From a virus, in IMG/VR virus record IMGVR_UViG_3300004369_000071, positions 1 to 33,302 of that record: DNA of 33,302 bases; one strand, 5' to 3'. The notes beneath the pieces are model-generated. The model worked only from the letters and a program-made list of their open reading frames with translations. It was not told the DNA's origin and did no database searches. The position numbers were made by a program, and so were the translations under genes. Below are positions 28,835-33,302 of this stretch, piece by piece (positions within the stretch are counted from its first letter, which is position 1; each line of letters begins with the position of its first letter).

Positions 28835-29071
28835 TCAGAGCACTTGTCTCCCATATGTTGGTTCAGTTCCGTATTCCCAGTCATCATAATCTTCATCATT
28901 GCGAATCTTTTCGTGCAATTCGTTGGATGATGAGAACTTTTTTGTTTTCTTTAACATATCATCGTGAACAACCTCTTGTAAAAGTTGTTCAGAGTCATAA
29001 TTAGTGATTAAATGAGTTGTTCCACACTCCTCAAACATTAATTTTCGGTTAAAATCTGATGGTTGACCCAT
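28835..29071 (-). CDS. Small acidic hypothetical protein overlapping its upstream gene (78 aa, or 67 aa)
   Basis: Unknown function. Two starts compete. The ATG at 29071 has an excellent AGGAG ribosome site 7 nt upstream but overlaps the 236-aa gene by 34 nt. The ATG at 29038 (MFEECGTTHLITNYDSEQLL) forms a one-base TAATG overlap with that gene's stop and gives 67 aa, the more usual phage arrangement. The body is rich in Glu, Asp and Lys (VVHDDMLKKTKKFSSSNELH) with a Tyr/Trp/Asp tail (EDYDDWEYGTEPTYGRQVL). It has no membrane segment and no recognised domain. It lies immediately before the gp25 late promoter. Confidence 0.75.
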   Translation of the reverse strand: MGQPSDFNRKLMFEECGTTHLITNYDSEQLLQEVVHDDMLKKTKKFSSSNELHEKIRNDEDYDDWEYGTEPTYGRQVL

Positions 29072-29748
29072 TGTTGAGCTCCTGATTCGTGTAAATCAGA
29101 ACTTTTTACGGGGTTGCTATCCCGAATTTCTGTGATTTCGTACATAAAATCATCGGAAGTTTCAATTTTGCGACGATTTTCGACTGAATATTCGGTCAGA
29201 TCAATTTCATAACCAGGATTTTTGGTGATTCTGTTCTGAGTCCATGCATCATCATACCATAATATTTTATTATTTGGATATGCATAGAAGTTTCCATTAT
29301 CCATCTTGAAAAAATGGGCACATTTATGTTCTGGAGTCTCACTGAAATTAGTGTTCAGAGTAGATTTTGATTCCCAAGACCAATCCAGAGTGAACAGATA
29401 AGTACCTTCGTTCTTTTCTCCGCGATAATTAATCAATTCTGCTCGTAATCCAGCTAATCTGGAACGAACCTGAACATCAATATACGGTGAGAAACAATCC
29501 CACCACATACACTCTTCTAATTTCTGAATCGGTGCATCCGGTTTCCAACAAAATGCGTGTATTGGTCTTCGAGTCCAGTTCACTCCATTTTCTAAAAACG
29601 CTTCAAAGAGAGGAACACGTTTCTCTAAAGAAGCCACCGAATGAACATCACAGAGAGTCACTTCACCGTGCCCCTTCTTATGATTATATAGAAACTCATT
29701 ACGAATGTAACAAGTAATCGTCGGAAGATTGTGATTGAGATATGCCAT
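29038..29748 (-). CDS. Hypothetical protein rich in Trp, Tyr and Asn (236 aa)
   Basis: Not assigned. The protein is soluble-looking, with no signal or membrane segment, and unusually rich in aromatic residues (WTRRPIHAFCWKPDAPIQKL, ECMWWDCFSPYIDVQVRSR, LFTLDWSWESKS, NKILWYDDAWTQNRI). Cysteines occur at about residues 12, 33, 67, 79 and 85 (the last two in ECMWWDC), with one more near 144. The C-terminal third (LTEYSVENRRKIETSDDFMY) is polar. It sits just downstream of an intrinsic terminator and upstream of the gp25 operon. The ATG at 29748 has almost no leader after the terminator and no Shine-Dalgarno. I do not recognise a catalytic motif; a conserved T4-like cyanophage protein of unknown role is the most that can be said. 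Confidence 0.8.
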   Translation of the reverse strand: MAYLNHNLPTITCYIRNEFLYNHKKGHGEVTLCDVHSVASLEKRVPLFEAFLENGVNWTRRPIHAFCWKPDAPIQKLEECMWWDCFSPYIDVQVRSRLAGLRAELINYRGEKNEGTYLFTLDWSWESKSTLNTNFSETPEHKCAHFFKMDNGNFYAYPNNKILWYDDAWTQNRITKNPGYEIDLTEYSVENRRKIETSDDFMYEITEIRDSNPVKSSDLHESGAQQWVNHQILTEN

Positions 29749-29934: not shown

Positions 29935-30129
29935 TTACTCAACTCCTTCAATAACTTCAATAACTTCAACATCATCAGGGTCAATCGCCCCATCCCGCCC
30001 TTCATCAAACATCTGACTCAGGATTTGAAAGGCTTCAAACTTACCTTCCTCACTCAAAAGGCCTGAGGAGAGTTCCCGGCCTTCATAAACCAACTTAAAC
30101 CTCTTCCGAGGCAACTTCTTAGAAACCAT
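29935..30129 (-). CDS. Small hypothetical protein (64 aa)
   Basis: Unknown function. The N-terminus is basic (MVSKKLPRKRFKLVYEGREL), followed by a helix-like 'EEGKFEAFQILSQMFDEGRD' and a very acidic C-terminus (IDPDDVEVIEVIEGVE). The ATG shares one base with the stop of the glycosyltransferase gene (TGATG), and its stop is 2 nt from the 48-aa gene, so the three form a tight operon. The strongly split charge suggests a small protein that binds a partner, but nothing more specific is visible. Confidence 0.75.
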   Translation of the reverse strand: MVSKKLPRKRFKLVYEGRELSSGLLSEEGKFEAFQILSQMFDEGRDGAIDPDDVEVIEVIEGVE

Positions 30130-30893
30130 CAGATAATCCTCGTCTTTTCGTGACCAACTCTGATACGTGGATCACACCACGTCACGATACCTTCTGCTTT
30201 TGCATCCAGACAGAAACTCACATCCTCACCGCACATATCCTGGATACGCCCTGAGTCAAACTTTTGCATCTTTGGTGCAAACCAGGGATACTCCAAACGT
30301 TCAAAGACACCCTTCTTGATCAGAACCCATCCAAAACCTGTGTAATCAACCGTGAAAGGCTTATTACGACGACTGATGGACTCAACGGTTTCGTGATTCA
30401 TCACTCCACCATTCTTCTCGAAATCTTCTTCATCCAACCAGTGTGCCACAGAGGTCGTGTGCCCATCTTCTGTTGCATACCAACCGGCGGTGATTTCCTT
30501 TTCATCACCATCTGCAGGAAGTGCAAGATCCATCAACTGCCAGAACTTATTCGTGTCAAAGACAATATCAGAATCAATCCAGAGTTGATAGTCATAATTC
30601 AGTTTACCATCCCAGGGAATCTGTTTTGGCCCCCTGAGTACATTCGCCCCGAGTACTTTGCATCGTGCAAAGTTTACCATCGAGGAATAATCTTGAGAAA
30701 TCTGAATACTCATACCATTTTGTACAATGTCAAAACAGAGTTGTACAAAGTTTTTTAGAAAGATATAAGAACACCCACGACCAGGAAGGCAGAACACAAT
30801 ACTCTTACCTTTGCATCGTTCCTTGATCGCGTCGTAGTCCCACTCTTCGGTTTGTTCAGTTTCTTTGGGAATAACTTTGAATCCTTTAGCCAT
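30129..30893 (-). CDS. Glycosyltransferase-like protein, GT-A fold (254 aa)
   Basis: Probably transfers a sugar from a nucleotide-sugar donor, perhaps modifying a virion protein or phage DNA. The N-terminal part (SIVFCLPGRGCSYIFLKNFV, then ISQDYSSMVNFARCKVLGAN) fits a GT-A Rossmann-like half. The metal-binding DxD motif is WIDSDIVF, with D107-S-D109. The acceptor half includes VDYTGFGWVLIKKGVFERL, the catalytic-type ED pair in CGEDVSFCLDAKAEGI (223-224), and a C-terminal RVGHEKT with a His that could complete the metal site. This pattern is shared by many phage and bacterial small glycosyltransferases. The gene has a CTAAATA late box 36 nt upstream, so it is probably expressed with virion genes. 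The substrate is unknown. Confidence 0.82.
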   Translation of the reverse strand: MAKGFKVIPKETEQTEEWDYDAIKERCKGKSIVFCLPGRGCSYIFLKNFVQLCFDIVQNGMSIQISQDYSSMVNFARCKVLGANVLRGPKQIPWDGKLNYDYQLWIDSDIVFDTNKFWQLMDLALPADGDEKEITAGWYATEDGHTTSVAHWLDEEDFEKNGGVMNHETVESISRRNKPFTVDYTGFGWVLIKKGVFERLEYPWFAPKMQKFDSGRIQDMCGEDVSFCLDAKAEGIVTWCDPRIRVGHEKTRII

Positions 30894-30942: not shown

Positions 30943-31083
30943 CTAGAGACCTCCGTTGTTCGGTATTCGATACGGTTCACAGTTCTGTCTGCGCCCAATA
31001 CGAACACGCGGAGTTTCACGGAGAGATGCGGAGACATAGTTGAATGCGAGAAGACTTAGAACGACCTTGGCGAGGAATTTCAT
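30943..31083 (-). CDS. Small putative secreted protein with signal peptide (46 aa)
   Basis: Read directly from the sequence; it is too short for routine ORF listing. The ATG is at 31083-31081 and the stop TAG at 30945-30943. The N-terminus MKFLAKVVLSLLAFNYVSA has the charged start, hydrophobic core and VSA-type end of a Sec signal peptide, with likely cleavage after residue 19. The mature part would be about 27 residues (SLRETPRVRIGRRQNCEPYR, then IPNNGGL), basic, with one Cys. It could be a periplasmic or membrane-anchored peptide acting on the host envelope, but the function is unknown. No good ribosome site is present. The leader contains a run of eight A then five T before the start. Confidence 0.6.
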   Translation of the reverse strand: MKFLAKVVLSLLAFNYVSASLRETPRVRIGRRQNCEPYRIPNNGGL

Positions 31084-31160
31084 ATCCGGAAAAATTTTTT
31101 TTGAAGAGTAAAAAGAGAGCGCGATTTCAAAGTTTTGTAGGTTAGGGTTGTTTGCGTTTT

Positions 31161-31182
31161 TATAAGGGGGGGGGGGCTTATA
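31161..31182. repeat. Inverted repeat TATAAG/CTTATA enclosing a run of G residues
   Basis: TATAAG at 31161-31166 and its exact complement CTTATA at 31177-31182 enclose ten further G residues, so the plus strand has 11 consecutive G. Such a homopolymer is out of character for the rest of the window. Confidence 0.8.
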
Positions 31183-31219
31183 CCTTATACGATACCTCGA
31201 TACCTTATACGATACGCGC
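31180..31219. repeat. Two copies of a 20-bp tandem repeat
   Basis: ATACCTTATACGATAC occurs at 31180-31195 and again at 31200-31215, a period of exactly 20 bp. Each copy contains TATAAG and GTATCG on the minus strand, which resemble -10 hexamers. Confidence 0.85.
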
Positions 31220-31295
31220 CCCGCGCCATAAACCCCAACACCCCATAGAACTGCTCAGAGGGGGAACTGCTCCCCCCCGTATTGGCAAGCCCCTA

Positions 31296-31544
31296 TCAGC
31301 CGCTGGTTTTGAAGTAGGCAGCGGCGTTACCAGCAACCACACTCTGCTCAGCGTGAACGGCGTGCCCCTGATAGGCCTGCCCGCGGCGGTTGGTGTTCGT
31401 GCGGGTGCCTTTGGTCTGGCTCATCACCAGTTCAGAACGCTTTGCCTTACGCTGGGGGAGGCGAGTCACCTTAACCTCGCCACGGGTCTCAGCGATCAGA
31501 AGATCCAGCGAGGAACCAGCGGCGAGTGCAGAGAGGTTGTTCAT
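31296..31544 (-). CDS. Small basic protein in the GC-rich region (82 aa)
   Basis: Unknown function. Starting at the ATG at 31544, the product begins MNNLSALAAGSSLDLLIAET and becomes strongly basic (VTRLPQRKAKRSE, SQTKGTRTNTNRRGQAYQ), ending AEQSVVAGNAAAYFKTSG. A longer reading to 31619 would need a TTG start and would swallow the promoter, so it is not favoured. The promoter pair TTGCTT, 17 nt, TATCTT lies 26 nt upstream, and the leader carries the GGCCACATACCAAA element shared with two other small genes. There is no Shine-Dalgarno. Base composition is much more GC-rich than the virion genes. A nucleic-acid-binding role is possible from charge alone. Confidence 0.6.
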   Translation of the reverse strand: MNNLSALAAGSSLDLLIAETRGEVKVTRLPQRKAKRSELVMSQTKGTRTNTNRRGQAYQGHAVHAEQSVVAGNAAAYFKTSG

Positions 31545-31555
31545 CGGTCGGGTCG

Positions 31556-31598
31556 TTTGGTATGTGGCCAAGATAGGATGAAATGAGGAGGAAAGCAA
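31556..31598 (-). promoter_or_regulatory. Sigma70-like promoter and shared leader element before the 82-aa basic gene
   Basis: On the minus strand TTGCTT (31598-31593), a 17-nt spacer and TATCTT (31575-31570) form a reasonable bacterial-type promoter. It is followed by GGCCACATACCAAA. The 22-nt stretch 31556-31577 is identical to 32940-32961 except for one base in the -10 hexamer. Confidence 0.62.
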
Positions 31599-31615
31599 GG
31601 GCCTAGGCCACTTGC
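31595..31615. repeat. CCTAGG-centred palindrome between two small genes
   Basis: GCAAGGGCCTAGGCC-A-CTTGC is an almost perfect inverted repeat with one bulged A. It lies between the stop of the 31626-31874 gene and the -10 box of the next gene and overlaps the -35 element. It could be a transcript-end hairpin or an operator; no T-run follows. Confidence 0.6.
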
Positions 31616-31625
31616 TCAACAGTCC

Positions 31626-31874
31626 TCATAACTCTGCCAGGAACTCATTCATCTCCACATCACAGATCTTAGGGTCATTCCAGGCAACACCGTCACCAGT
31701 GGCGCCCAGGTAGCGGCCGATCTGCCCGTCTACCATACAACGCTGAAACTTGTGCCAGGGGGTCTCATTGTCGCCACAGTGCTCTACACACGCCATGGCG
31801 GTGTTATAGAGGAACTCATCATTGCCGATCCAGAGAGCAGCGTTCCAGGTTTCGTAGTTATCGTAGCCGTTCAT
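31626..31874 (-). CDS. Small 'NGYxNYETWNxALW' family protein (82 aa)
   Basis: The opening MNGYDNYETWNAALWIGNDE, followed by 'FLYNTAMACVEHCGD', belongs to a recognisable family of small proteins (pattern NGYxNxETWNxxLWxxNDExLY) found in phages and cyanobacteria; I believe it is catalogued as a DUF (possibly DUF7249). Function is unknown. The C-terminal half (FQRCMVDGQIGRYLGATGDG, then 'WNDPKICDVEMNEFLAEL') contains several Cys and Trp. The length is typical. Its own promoter-like element and leader lie 25 nt upstream, and a palindrome follows its stop, so it looks like a self-contained cassette. GC content is high, resembling marine Synechococcus more than the phage core (inference). Confidence 0.78.
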   Translation of the reverse strand: MNGYDNYETWNAALWIGNDEFLYNTAMACVEHCGDNETPWHKFQRCMVDGQIGRYLGATGDGVAWNDPKICDVEMNEFLAEL

Positions 31875-31884
31875 TGGTCGTCTG

Positions 31885-31906
31885 TGGTTGATGTGGCTAG
31901 TATAGG
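31885..31906 (-). promoter_or_regulatory. Promoter-like -10 box and shared leader element before the ETWN-family gene
   Basis: TATACT (31904-31899) is followed by AGCCACAT on the minus strand, the divergent third copy of the element before the 82-aa basic gene and the 115-aa gene. The -10 to ATG distance (25 nt) matches the others (26 and 24). No good -35 is visible. Confidence 0.5.
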
Positions 31907-31907
31907 G

Positions 31908-31917
31908 CCCCTAGGGG
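31908..31917. repeat. Palindrome CCCCTAGGGG between two small genes
   Basis: A perfect 10-bp palindrome directly after the stop of the 59-aa gene and 4 nt before the -10 box of the next gene. It shares the CCTAGG centre with the palindrome at 31595-31615. Confidence 0.65.
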
Positions 31918-32097
31918 TCAGTGGCGGTCGCTGATGTTCCAGCTGCCGTACTGTCCACTGAGCTCCTGATCGTACTGGGCGGCGAAAGCAGGATCGCTGA
32001 AATACCGGTCGCGGATCTCCTGGCGATGGCGTTCCTCTGCACTGAGCCTTGCAGTGTAGTCTGCCAGGATCGCGGCGAGGTCTGGTGTGTTGTTCAT
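31918..32097 (-). CDS. Small hypothetical protein in the GC-rich region (59 aa)
   Basis: Unknown function. From the ATG at 32097 the product is MNNTPDLAAILADYTARLSA followed by 'EERHRQEIRDRYFSDPAFAA' and 'QYDQELSGQYGSWNISDRH', mostly helical and charged. An upstream in-frame TTG at 32184 would add 29 residues but has no support. It resembles the neighbouring basic gene in starting MNN, but the rest does not align. The leader has no ribosome site. A TATAAA lies about 100 nt upstream as a possible -10. High GC and position put it with its neighbours as an accessory gene. Confidence 0.5.
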   Translation of the reverse strand: MNNTPDLAAILADYTARLSAEERHRQEIRDRYFSDPAFAAQYDQELSGQYGSWNISDRH

Positions 32098-32243
32098 ATG
32101 GCTATGGTAGAAGACTTGGCGGGATTTGGCAAGGTCGGTGGACTGTTCGCGGAGTGGCTCGGAGGGGCGTAGAGGGGTTGCCAAGGGTGCCGGAGTTTTA
32201 TAGAATAGCTCAGCGCCGTTGGCGTGCGCGCTAAGACCACAAG

Positions 32244-32305
32244 ACTCGGCTAGGTTTCTGGCATCATACTCGGCTAGGTTTCTATCAGGTTTCTATCAGG
32301 TTTCT
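32244..32305. repeat. Four direct copies of AGGTTTCT, in 16-bp and 11-bp units
   Basis: ACTCGGCTAGGTTTCT occurs at 32244-32259 and 32268-32283, followed by ATCAGGTTTCT at 32284-32294 and 32295-32305. All share AGGTTTCT (starts 32252, 32276, 32287, 32298), spaced 24, 11 and 11 bp. The 11-bp spacing is about one helical turn, as in iteron or operator arrays. Confidence 0.85.
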
Positions 32306-32389
32306 GATACGAATTAGTATCACATAGCCAACCTGATACTGATAATTATCAAAATCATATAATTTTCTCTCAGCCATTTTTTTATACAT
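32285..32389 (-). CDS. Possible very small ORF running into the repeat array (34 aa, doubtful)
   Basis: On the minus strand an ORF starts MYKKMAERKLYDFDNYQYQV (ATG at 32389) and ends in the second AGAAACCTGAT unit after 34 residues. It has no ribosome site. The front half looks like the N-terminus of a small phage protein cut short by the tandem repeats, so it may be a remnant or chance. Confidence 0.2.
   Translation of the reverse strand: MYKKMAERKLYDFDNYQYQVGYVILIRIRNLIET
32306..32350. repeat. Inverted repeats GATAC...GTATC and GATAATTATC
   Basis: GATAC-GAATTA-GTATC (32306-32321) directly follows the AGGTTTCT array, and the perfect palindrome GATAATTATC lies at 32341-32350, with another GATAC at 32335-32339. 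With the direct repeats next door this is a dense, gene-poor regulatory-looking block of about 110 bp. Confidence 0.75.
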
Positions 32390-32406
32390 TTTTAATCAAT
32401 TTTTAA

Positions 32407-32529
32407 TCAATTTTGACTATAAATCGCATCGGCCGTGGTATGAAGCACAGTGGCAGTAATGTTACGGATGGGAGCAAGTGGAGCCCAGAATACCCACAGT
32501 AGCAAACCAGTCACAGTCAATTTAAGCAT
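32407..32529 (-). CDS. Small single-span membrane protein (40 aa)
   Basis: Read directly from the sequence; it is too short for routine listing. From the ATG at 32529 the product is MLKLTVTGLLLWVFWAPLAP followed by IRNITATVLHTTADAIYSQN. Residues 3-20 form one hydrophobic span (TVTGLLLWVFWAPLA), so it should sit in the host membrane. AAGGA lies 4 nt upstream of this ATG, which is why this start is preferred over the in-frame ATG at 32580 (57 aa) that follows the 115-aa gene's stop by 2 nt without a ribosome site. Either way it is in the same transcript as the 115-aa gene. Function is unknown; a small holin-like or envelope-modifying peptide would fit. Confidence 0.62.
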   Translation of the reverse strand: MLKLTVTGLLLWVFWAPLAPIRNITATVLHTTADAIYSQN

Positions 32530-32582
32530 CGTTTCCTTATGGAATTGAGGTGAGCGAGACTTAGTAAGTTCCTTCAGCATTA

Positions 32583-32930
32583 TCAAGCAAACATAAACCC
32601 ATTGGTGAAGTCGTAGCAGTTAAACACGGAAGAAGTTCCTGCTTGCCCAATGAACTTGTGAACATACCAATTCCAGTTCTTTTGAAATACACATTCACCC
32701 TTGATTCCGTGATCCTTGAGAATAGCATTCAGACGTGACTTGGTGGTGACAGACTGATGACCACCATCAAAGATCTGAACGAAGTTGTCACCAATGATGG
32801 CAATCTTGTTACCGTACAGATACACTGTGGAAGTGTTATCTTCGGGATTGTAGCAAACTTCAGTGTTGTCTTTACGCCAGTTCTGGTTGTTAAGAATGGC
32901 AGCGTTCATTTGATGTTCGATCTTGCGCAT
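32583..32930 (-). CDS. Small phage protein, 'TTKSRLNA' type (115 aa)
   Basis: The sequence (MRKIEHQMNAAILNNQNWRK, then 'STVYLYGNKIAIIGDNFVQI', 'GGHQSVTTKSRLNAILKDHG' and 'VFQKNWNWYVH') matches a small protein widespread in cyanophages and marine T7-like phages: MNxAIxxxxxW, a 'VYLhGN.IA' strand, and TTKSRLNA near the middle. No function is known. It probably has a beta fold with a conserved basic TTKSR loop that could bind nucleic acid. It has its own promoter-like -10 (TATATT) and the GGCCACATACCAAA leader, with AAGGGA as a weak ribosome site. Base composition is closer to the phage core than to the GC-rich neighbours. The small membrane protein follows it. Confidence 0.82.
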   Translation of the reverse strand: MRKIEHQMNAAILNNQNWRKDNTEVCYNPEDNTSTVYLYGNKIAIIGDNFVQIFDGGHQSVTTKSRLNAILKDHGIKGECVFQKNWNWYVHKFIGQAGTSSVFNCYDFTNGFMFA

Positions 32931-32939
32931 TGGTTTCCC

Positions 32940-32961
32940 TTTGGTATGTGGCCAATATAGG
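32940..32961 (-). promoter_or_regulatory. Promoter-like -10 box and shared leader element before the 115-aa gene
   Basis: TATATT (32959-32954) is followed by GGCCACATACCAAA on the minus strand. The 22-nt stretch differs at one base from 31556-31577. The -10 to ATG distance is 24 nt. No recognisable -35 is seen. Confidence 0.58.
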
Positions 32962-32990
32962 GTGTTGGCAGGGCGGTGGCGAGGTTAGTG

Positions 32991-33008
32991 GACAGCCGTG
33001 TGGCTGTC
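32991..33008 (-). other. Hairpin GACAGCC-ACAC-GGCTGTC overlapping the end of the 72-aa gene
   Basis: A perfect 7-bp stem with a 4-nt loop starts inside the stop codon of the 72-aa gene and precedes the promoter-like box of the 115-aa gene. There is no T-run, so it is either a weak terminator or an mRNA end or processing structure. Confidence 0.6.
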
Positions 33009-33225
33009 ACAGGATGTCGGGGGTTTCTTTAGTCTCAACTCCAAAATCTTCCAGCACTTCATCACCGAACACATCACGAATCTCATTGATAAGTTCTGCC
33101 TCAGAATAGTTGTTAAGATTCTCCACAAGTGTATCAAACACAAACTGTTCCATCGTCTTGTAATCCATTCCATCCATAATAAACTCAGCATACTTCTCAA
33201 CGAGTTCGATGTGAGTGTTTTGCAT
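33007..33225 (-). CDS. Small acidic helical phage protein (72 aa)
   Basis: The product MQNTHIELVEKYAEFIMDGM followed by 'DYKTMEQFVFDTLVENLNNY' and 'SEAELINEIRDVFGDEVLED' is acidic and all-helical. It resembles a common small marine-phage protein (pattern EQLVEKYxxYIxxGMDxKTLxQFxxDTLxxNL...EELxxE) of unknown function. It begins 5 nt after the stop of the preceding partial gene, so they are co-transcribed. The hairpin at its stop and the new promoter downstream close the unit. Confidence 0.8.
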   Translation of the reverse strand: MQNTHIELVEKYAEFIMDGMDYKTMEQFVFDTLVENLNNYSEAELINEIRDVFGDEVLEDFGVETKETPDIL

Positions 33226-33230
33226 CAGTT

Positions 33231-33302
33231 TCAGGCGTTGATAGAGAAGAACATGTGGTCAGAGTCTAACACATTACAGGCAGGACCAGTCCAACCGATA
33301 GA
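33231..33302 (-). CDS. C-terminal fragment of an unknown protein (partial, 23 aa)
   Basis: An open frame enters from the right edge and ends at the TGA at 33233-33231, encoding SIGWTGPACNVLDSDHMFFS and INA. It is 5 nt before the 72-aa gene. The frame is supported only by its openness and tight spacing; the product cannot be identified. Confidence 0.5.
   Translation of the reverse strand, partial: SIGWTGPACNVLDSDHMFFSINA

Follow-up and report, generated by a model that had tools for sequence, protein, structure and literature searches.

Promoter-early stem-loop (PeSL) cassettes of T4-type phages were reportedly described by Arbiol in 2010 and by Comeau in 2014. PeSLs are known from T4-type phages, and few such elements were counted in cyanophage S-PM2 (PMC4503421). 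Cyanophages S-PM2 and Syn9 have host-like sigma70 early promoters, with a sigma70-like motif at homologues of T4 early genes that was not found in S-RSM4; how cyanomyoviruses transcribe their early and middle genes is described as unclear (PMC2984593). Repeated intergenic motifs that bear promoters have been described in the haloarchaeal viruses HGTV-1 (PMC3950731) and HF2 (PMC8707807). A putative Pho box of S-PM2d250, CCTATACTGATCTCAGTTC, has been read as a PhoB site (PMC10976474, Table 2), and S-PM2d250 is not among the genes named as tested for PhoB binding (PMC10976474).

Viruses that infect marine and freshwater cyanobacteria have many unrelated small genes that each carry their own copy of one compact promoter, predicted to set the RNA start either on the first ATG or ~20 bases ahead of it. 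This sigma70-type promoter very probably forms an exchangeable 5' end for cassettes of small cyanophage genes, with two mRNA forms. Comparative sequence analysis defines the core and its spacing, shows that it stands before genes with the ATG at one of two positions, and reveals an upstream dyad at a fixed distance and the exchange of units.

Four promoter-plus-gene units in a cyanomyovirus fragment

The window, i.e., the whole stretch of DNA analysed (33,302 bases), is a complete IMG/VR record of a virus fragment, and recurrence was thus checked in complete relatives. The minus strand of this 33-kb cyanomyovirus fragment encodes head-closure/adaptor proteins along with several proteins of the baseplate wedge, which are gp25-, gp6- and gp8-like as judged by their sizes, their order and a comparison with S-CAM9. 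Four cassette units lie on the same strand, 2.5–4 kb upstream of the baseplate gene gp25 (Table 1); the S-CAM9 units are in the same place and end ~2 kb before gp25. Between the cassettes and gp25 are a protein matching phrog_3704 (named ferredoxin) and a phrog_1574 protein with weak glycosyltransferase similarity (29041-29748 and 30129-30893). The G+C content is 55–61% over much of 31200-32250, compared to ~40% in the flanks, and the non-coding flanks of this G+C-rich island carry a G run and short tandem repeats (ATACCTTATACG, AGGTTTCTATC, ATTTTTAATCA; 31168-31215, 32276-32305 and 32388-32414).

As the original prediction had claimed, near-identical 22-mers (CCTATMTTGGCCACATACCAAA) precede the 115-aa gene (32940-32961) and the basic 82-aa gene (31556-31577) on the minus strand, with one mismatch between the copies, and a diverged third copy, TATACT-AGCCACAT, precedes the 'ETWN' gene on that strand (31891-31904). 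The three genes named there do carry the element, and a fourth copy, TACCAT-AGCCAT-ATG at 32109-32095, had been missed; it opens a 59-aa gene whose ATG itself is the predicted +1. The distances from -10 to ATG given for the first three genes (24, 26 and 25 nt) are each one too high when counted as intervening bases (23, 25 and 24); along the minus strand, units 1 to 4 have 23, 6, 24 and 25 bases. A hairpin or palindrome had also been placed upstream of each copy. The whole dyad is found at the 115-aa gene (unit 1) only, while units 2 and 4 have its right half at exactly 28 nt and unit 3 (DUF7249) has, at 30 nt, a weak half-site. Two palindromes, GGCCTAGGCC and CCCCTAGGGG, lie at differing positions and form no common element.

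With three mismatches allowed, the 22-mer pattern, matched by both copies with 0 mismatches, is expected 0.34 times per shuffled window, a figure that weighs less than the evidence from other genomes because the pattern was drawn from the same data. At spacer 17, units 4 and 2 have the -35 sequences TTGCTT and TTGCCA, and units 1 and 3 have TCGCCA and CCGCCA, which are weaker. The basic 82-aa gene matched neither a Pfam nor a PHROG family. A tail W(N/H)ISDR(H/D)-stop (window 31918-31960) is common to small proteins with differing N-termini in S-CAM9 and L036, L138, L151, L153, L154, L158, L289 and L297, where L labels denote loci or contigs compared in the analysis (L348 is S-CAM9, KU686206.1). 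The DNA coding for this tail doubles as the upstream promoter region of the next gene, and promoter constraint may account for its conservation.

Table 1. Promoter elements and genes of the four units in the window.
Feature	Position	Strand	Basis
Unit 1 full upstream dyad TGTGACAGCCACACGGCTGTCCAC, 28 nt before -10	32988..33011	-	dyad sequence; 28-30 nt spacing class of independent sites
Unit 1 -35, TCGCCA (4/6), spacer 17	32977..32982	-	
Unit 1 -10, TATATT	32954..32959	-	
Unit 1 discriminator, GGCCAC	32948..32953	-	
Unit 1 predicted +1 (A, 32947) and 17-nt leader ATACCAAAGGGAAACCA	32931..32947	-	position predicted from leaderless units
115-aa gene, Kyano_Gp96 family (PF23790)	32583..32930	-	Pfam E=3.9e-44
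Unit 2 dyad right half-site AACAGTCCAC, 28 nt before -10	32138..32147	-	sequence
Unit 2 -35, TTGCCA, spacer 17	32127..32132	-	
Unit 2 -10, TACCAT	32104..32109	-	
Unit 2 discriminator, AGCCAT; next base is predicted +1 and A of ATG	32098..32103	-	
59-aa predicted leaderless gene MNNTPDLAAILADY...WNISDRH, phrog_14769	31918..32097	-	homologs conserved from this ATG
Unit 3 putative weak right half-site AGCTGGAACA, 30 nt from -10, within 3' end of 59-aa gene	31935..31944	-	sequence and inference
Unit 3 -35 position, CCGCCA (weak)	31922..31927	-	
Unit 3 -10, TATACT	31899..31904	-	
Unit 3 discriminator, AGCCAC	31893..31898	-	
Unit 3 predicted +1 (A, 31892) and 18-nt leader ATCAACCACAGACGACCA	31875..31892	-	as for unit 1
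82-aa DUF7249 gene (PF23907; 'ETWN' gene)	31626..31874	-	Pfam E=2.3e-28
Unit 4 right half-site AAGTGGCCTA, 28 nt before -10	31604..31613	-	sequence
Unit 4 -35, TTGCTT, spacer 17	31593..31598	-	
Unit 4 -10, TATCTT	31570..31575	-	
Unit 4 discriminator, GGCCAC	31564..31569	-	
Unit 4 predicted +1 (A, 31563) and 19-nt leader ATACCAAACGACCCGACCG	31545..31563	-	as for unit 1
82-aa basic gene, pI 10.6	31296..31544	-	homologs known from 10 cyanophage records and from 13 contigs of IMG/VR

The core, the dyad and cassette exchange in other cyanophages

The unit core is of sigma70 type and consists of a -35, 17 nt, TAnnnT, RGCCA(C/T) and an A at the predicted +1. A total of 146 relatives and loci were fetched via similarity to three window proteins only, without motif selection. 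TANNNT.GCCACA occurs in them at 29 distinct places, 28 of which precede an ATG-ORF of at least 35 aa and the last a TTG one, compared to a single occurrence of the reversed control pattern. The original prediction had proposed a search for the motif 20–30 nt before start codons in related cyanophages, and matches were found there. The stringent form of the core is also present in other cyanophage contigs. A curated set of 68 nonredundant sites from 31 contigs has 25 protein families downstream, which bears out the idea of unrelated small genes under one control signal and rules out gene duplication as the source of the shared leader. Among 65 aligned sites, none chosen for a -35, TTG is found at the 17-nt spacer in 22 and in 0–1 at each other spacer from 8 to 31. 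The sites thus show -10 TAnnnT and -35 TTGnnn ~17 nt apart, weakly so in window units 1 and 3. A palindromic operator GGCC-N7-GGCC around the -10 was rejected, as several copies lack the left GGCC.

The complete genomes of S-PRM1, S-8S53, S-8S55 and S-CAM9 carry 3–4 copies each, clustered within ~0.7 kb, and L154, L158 and L289 each carry about seven to nine units in ~2–3 kb. Among the other complete cyanomyovirus genomes examined, the core was absent in six and had one scattered match in each of two. No cluster of the RGCCAC form was seen in ACG-2014f, which was found by short-query BLAST. A loose pattern scan of IMG/VR gave mostly chance matches among the matches listed, and motif-chosen loci were left out of the placement statistics. 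The T4-type late promoter TATAAATA is not matched by the cassette -10s (TATACT, TATATT, TACCAT, TATCTT), and late motifs occur elsewhere. An Rfam search for structured RNA returned 0 matches. The CATCAACC form had 14 matches in GTDB genomes versus an estimated ~15 by chance, none in a record named cyanobacterial; for this one dialect, the GTDB scan gives no sign of a host origin of the core.

The core also precedes a conserved 716-721-aa protein (MINSQVKSNLAKLLATEN) in the AT-rich phages L005 (with TTGACC at spacer 17), L080 and L144 (open at 70 aa), and the element is therefore not confined to small genes. In S-CAM9 (47290-48495), the annotation puts cassette genes (MEILTPDS family, DUF7249 and basic 82-aa family) on the minus strand, with one ORF labelled 'long-chain-fatty-acid--CoA ligase'. 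The promoter and homologs show that these genes belong to the plus strand; the gene of the 59-aa family has no annotation. The cassette cluster of S-8S53 (OQ504982.1) is found at both record ends (728-1200 and 175201-175673), as if by a terminal duplication in the assembly.

The dyad TGTGMCAGTT-N4-AASTGTCCAC recurs across cyanophages 28–30 nt upstream of the -10, with 51 sites in the unbiased, protein-fetched loci and 0 for the reversed control. When an independent set was chosen by the dyad only, 49 of its 80 nonredundant sites had a -10-like hexamer 28–30 nt further on. The dyad also precedes promoters with other discriminators. Its fixed spacing near -53 and the often weak -35 fit an activator, and the units may be middle promoters at which a phage-encoded activator binds the dyad and switches the cassettes on after the early genes. 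Neither motA nor asiA is present in cyanomyoviruses, whose mode of middle transcription is described as unresolved (PMC2984593). Since many units have no full dyad and some have good -35s (e.g., TTGACC), we regard this reading, a refinement of the best explanation and not its opposite, as possible but doubtful.

A true T4-type PeSL would combine an early promoter with an RNA stem-loop terminator, the palindrome ending the previous transcript as RNA and mediating recombination. Such elements share with the units described here the position between small genes in a variable region, the sigma70 promoter and the shuffling of cassettes; they are known in T4-like phages (PMC4503421), and a similar TATA-plus-inverted-repeat motif is known in HGTV-1 (PMC3950731). 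However, the dyad pairs do not covary. Watson-Crick counts equal the independent-column expectation at all varying pairs except the innermost (26/50 versus 26.3 expected at one position). The absent covariation led us to reject the RNA-hairpin reading and favours a DNA-binding site centred near -53, and the dyad looks like a candidate DNA site. In addition, the full dyad is missing from three of the four window units, and a search of 31000-33302 gave no terminator-like site on the minus strand. A PeSL proper is thus unlikely.

The DUF7249 and basic-gene families are adjacent in the window, S-CAM9 and S-PRM1, and one to several extra promoter-plus-gene units lie between them in L151, L152, L289, L158 and L154. 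S-CAM9 and S-PRM1 align at 86% identity as far as 31 nt beyond one -10; the genes that follow differ between the two, and the alignment resumes near the ATG of the next shared gene. The junction of the swapped cassettes is at the core in this pair and between L151 and L152. In the islands of ten contigs, 29 of 57 homology-block starts fall within -25..+35 of a -10 (10.9 expected) and 15 of 44 block ends fall near one (8.4 expected), counts that are not independent, as related sequences were counted more than once. Whole-gene replacement alone would give some boundary excess near gene starts even if the core were no crossover site. Relatives appear to exchange entire promoter-plus-gene units as cassettes, and this exchange upholds the earlier proposal of gene cassettes with the element at their junctions.

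Different cores accompany the DUF7249 and Gp96 families in different phages, and unrelated families in one island share one core, indicating that the six-base sequence depends on the phage more than on the gene. RGCCAC is a lineage-specific discriminator; the dyad, the -10 and the leaderless spacing are more widely shared. Homogenisation by recombination or a lineage-specific factor could account for the uniform six bases within a phage. Each genome has the exact RGCCAC form in one short island only, and the core marks starts or ends of homology blocks, as would be expected if the uniform core were purely a recombination seam or homogenisation relic at which unrelated genes were joined, its promoter function being incidental. 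Yet a -35 with a strict 17-nt spacer, which often falls outside the homology block, and a strictly placed ATG are typical of promoters under selection, and the same spacing is kept under other discriminators, which makes a pure seam quite improbable.

Predicted start sites and two mRNA forms

Start placement was analysed at 171 sites anchored on the dyad and the -10 alone, ignoring discriminator and start codon. ATG-ORFs begin mainly at offset 6 from the -10 (22 of 171 sites) or at 21–30, and none begins at 5 or 7–15. A discriminator of six bases is usual for sigma70, and on the simplest reading transcription starts at the base after it, which makes the offset-6 class leaderless; the ATG spacing of this class agrees with a transcription start ~7 nt after the -10. 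The +1 would accordingly be the A that follows the 6-nt discriminator. Given the strict spacer-17 -35 and TAnnnT, GGCCAC lies between the -10 and the predicted +1, outside the predicted mRNA. The original prediction had read GGCCAC as leader; it is the discriminator, and only A(+1)TACCAAA... would be leader RNA.

Predicted leaderless units make up about a third (20 sites). Thirteen of the 20 have no other in-frame start within the reading frame, and ~4 are ambiguous, with a second in-frame ATG at normal leader distance. The 59-aa family is conserved from the offset-6 ATG, while the upstream frame is not conserved and has stops in four relatives; its ATG stays at the predicted +1 under the discriminators AGCCAC, AGCCAT and GACAGC. 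Likewise, the 297-304-aa MKN-HLEH family keeps its ATG at offset 6 under GGCCAC, AACAGT, AACAGC and AAAGGA. A conserved family of ~297 aa (MKNTHLEHAEDSILTGDLSVLDWF) has its ATG exactly at the predicted +1 in L227, L275, L414, L424, L432 and L469. A text search covering few subscription journals found no reports of leaderless cyanophage genes.

Leadered mRNAs are predicted to begin with A-T-A/C, and their leaders are 45% A and 34% C. The leader plus 20 nt has a mean fold of -1.8 kcal/mol versus -7.1 for coding segments of the same length, which is partly a base-composition effect. SD-like 4-mers were found in 13 of 48 leaders and 27 of 87 long ORFs of S-PRM1. This similar frequency rules out a specific loss of Shine-Dalgarno and, together with the third predicted to be leaderless, tells against the earlier suggestion of a leader that specifically replaces it. 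That the shared sequence is mainly a 5'-UTR translation signal, a ribosome-loading leader in place of Shine-Dalgarno, would fit the A- and C-rich, weakly structured leaders but is very unlikely, as GGCCAC is upstream of the predicted +1, about a third of sites are predicted to be leaderless and SD-like 4-mers are about as common as in other S-PRM1 genes. Taken as a whole, the original interpretation is partly supported.

Proposed model and comparison with known systems

In the preferred model, host RNA polymerase would bind TTGnnn-N17-TAnnnT. The 6-nt discriminator (RGCCAC in the lineage of the window) ends on C(-1) in most copies, and RNA would start on the next A. In one class this A would be the first base of the start codon, giving a leaderless mRNA, and in the other it would open a 15–33-nt CA-rich, weakly structured leader (ATACCAAAC.. 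or ATCAACCAC..). The dyad near -53 (GMCAGTT-N4-AASTGTC), whole or as its downstream half at many promoters, is probably bound by a host or phage regulator. The variable region upstream of gp25 would gain and lose whole promoter-plus-gene cassettes, whose junctions would lie at the shared core. The exact +1, the host polymerase, the early timing, the dyad-binding protein and the core as a recombination site are what we infer from these patterns. A dedicated cassette promoter of cyanomyoviruses, with leaderless and CA-leadered mRNAs, a dyad-mediated regulator and a fixed core that is both promoter and recombination junction, is a tenable though tentative proposal.

The element is real, widespread and interpretable as a promoter of cyanophage cassettes that gives two kinds of mRNA. 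With a precise model of it (dyad, -35, -10, discriminator and +1), the start sites, the regulator and the controlled gene set can be tested directly; the model also predicts that leaderless translation occurs in a major group of marine phages and provides a rule for finding small genes and correcting their annotation. The core is also a concrete candidate for the junction at which the variable region turns over its small genes so fast; if it is both promoter and recombination junction, any incoming small ORF could be expressed at once.

As in HGTV-1 and HF2, many genes each follow a copy of one promoter-like motif, with an inverted repeat in HGTV-1; unlike the cyanophages, those are archaeal viruses with TATA-type promoters, and no sequence relation is claimed. 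The element resembles the early promoters of S-PM2 and Syn9 in being of sigma70 type and presumably read by unmodified host polymerase, whereas the fixed discriminator, the dyad, the leaderless class and the cassette use set it apart from the description of those promoters in PMC2984593. The S-PM2d250 Pho box contains the TATACTGATCTCAGTTC core, another dialect, which is seen before DUF7249 genes in relatives; what PMC10976474 reads as a PhoB site would here be the -10, discriminator and +1. The T4 PeSL likewise places a repeated promoter between small genes of variable regions, with cassettes swapped at the promoter. In contrast to the T4 PeSL, the cyanophage palindrome does not behave as an RNA stem-loop, conservation runs from the -10 to +1, and there is a predicted leaderless class. 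Because the RNA stem-loop was tested and found without support, the cyanophage element is not filed as a PeSL, though it partly works like one, and the PeSL is the nearest known system.
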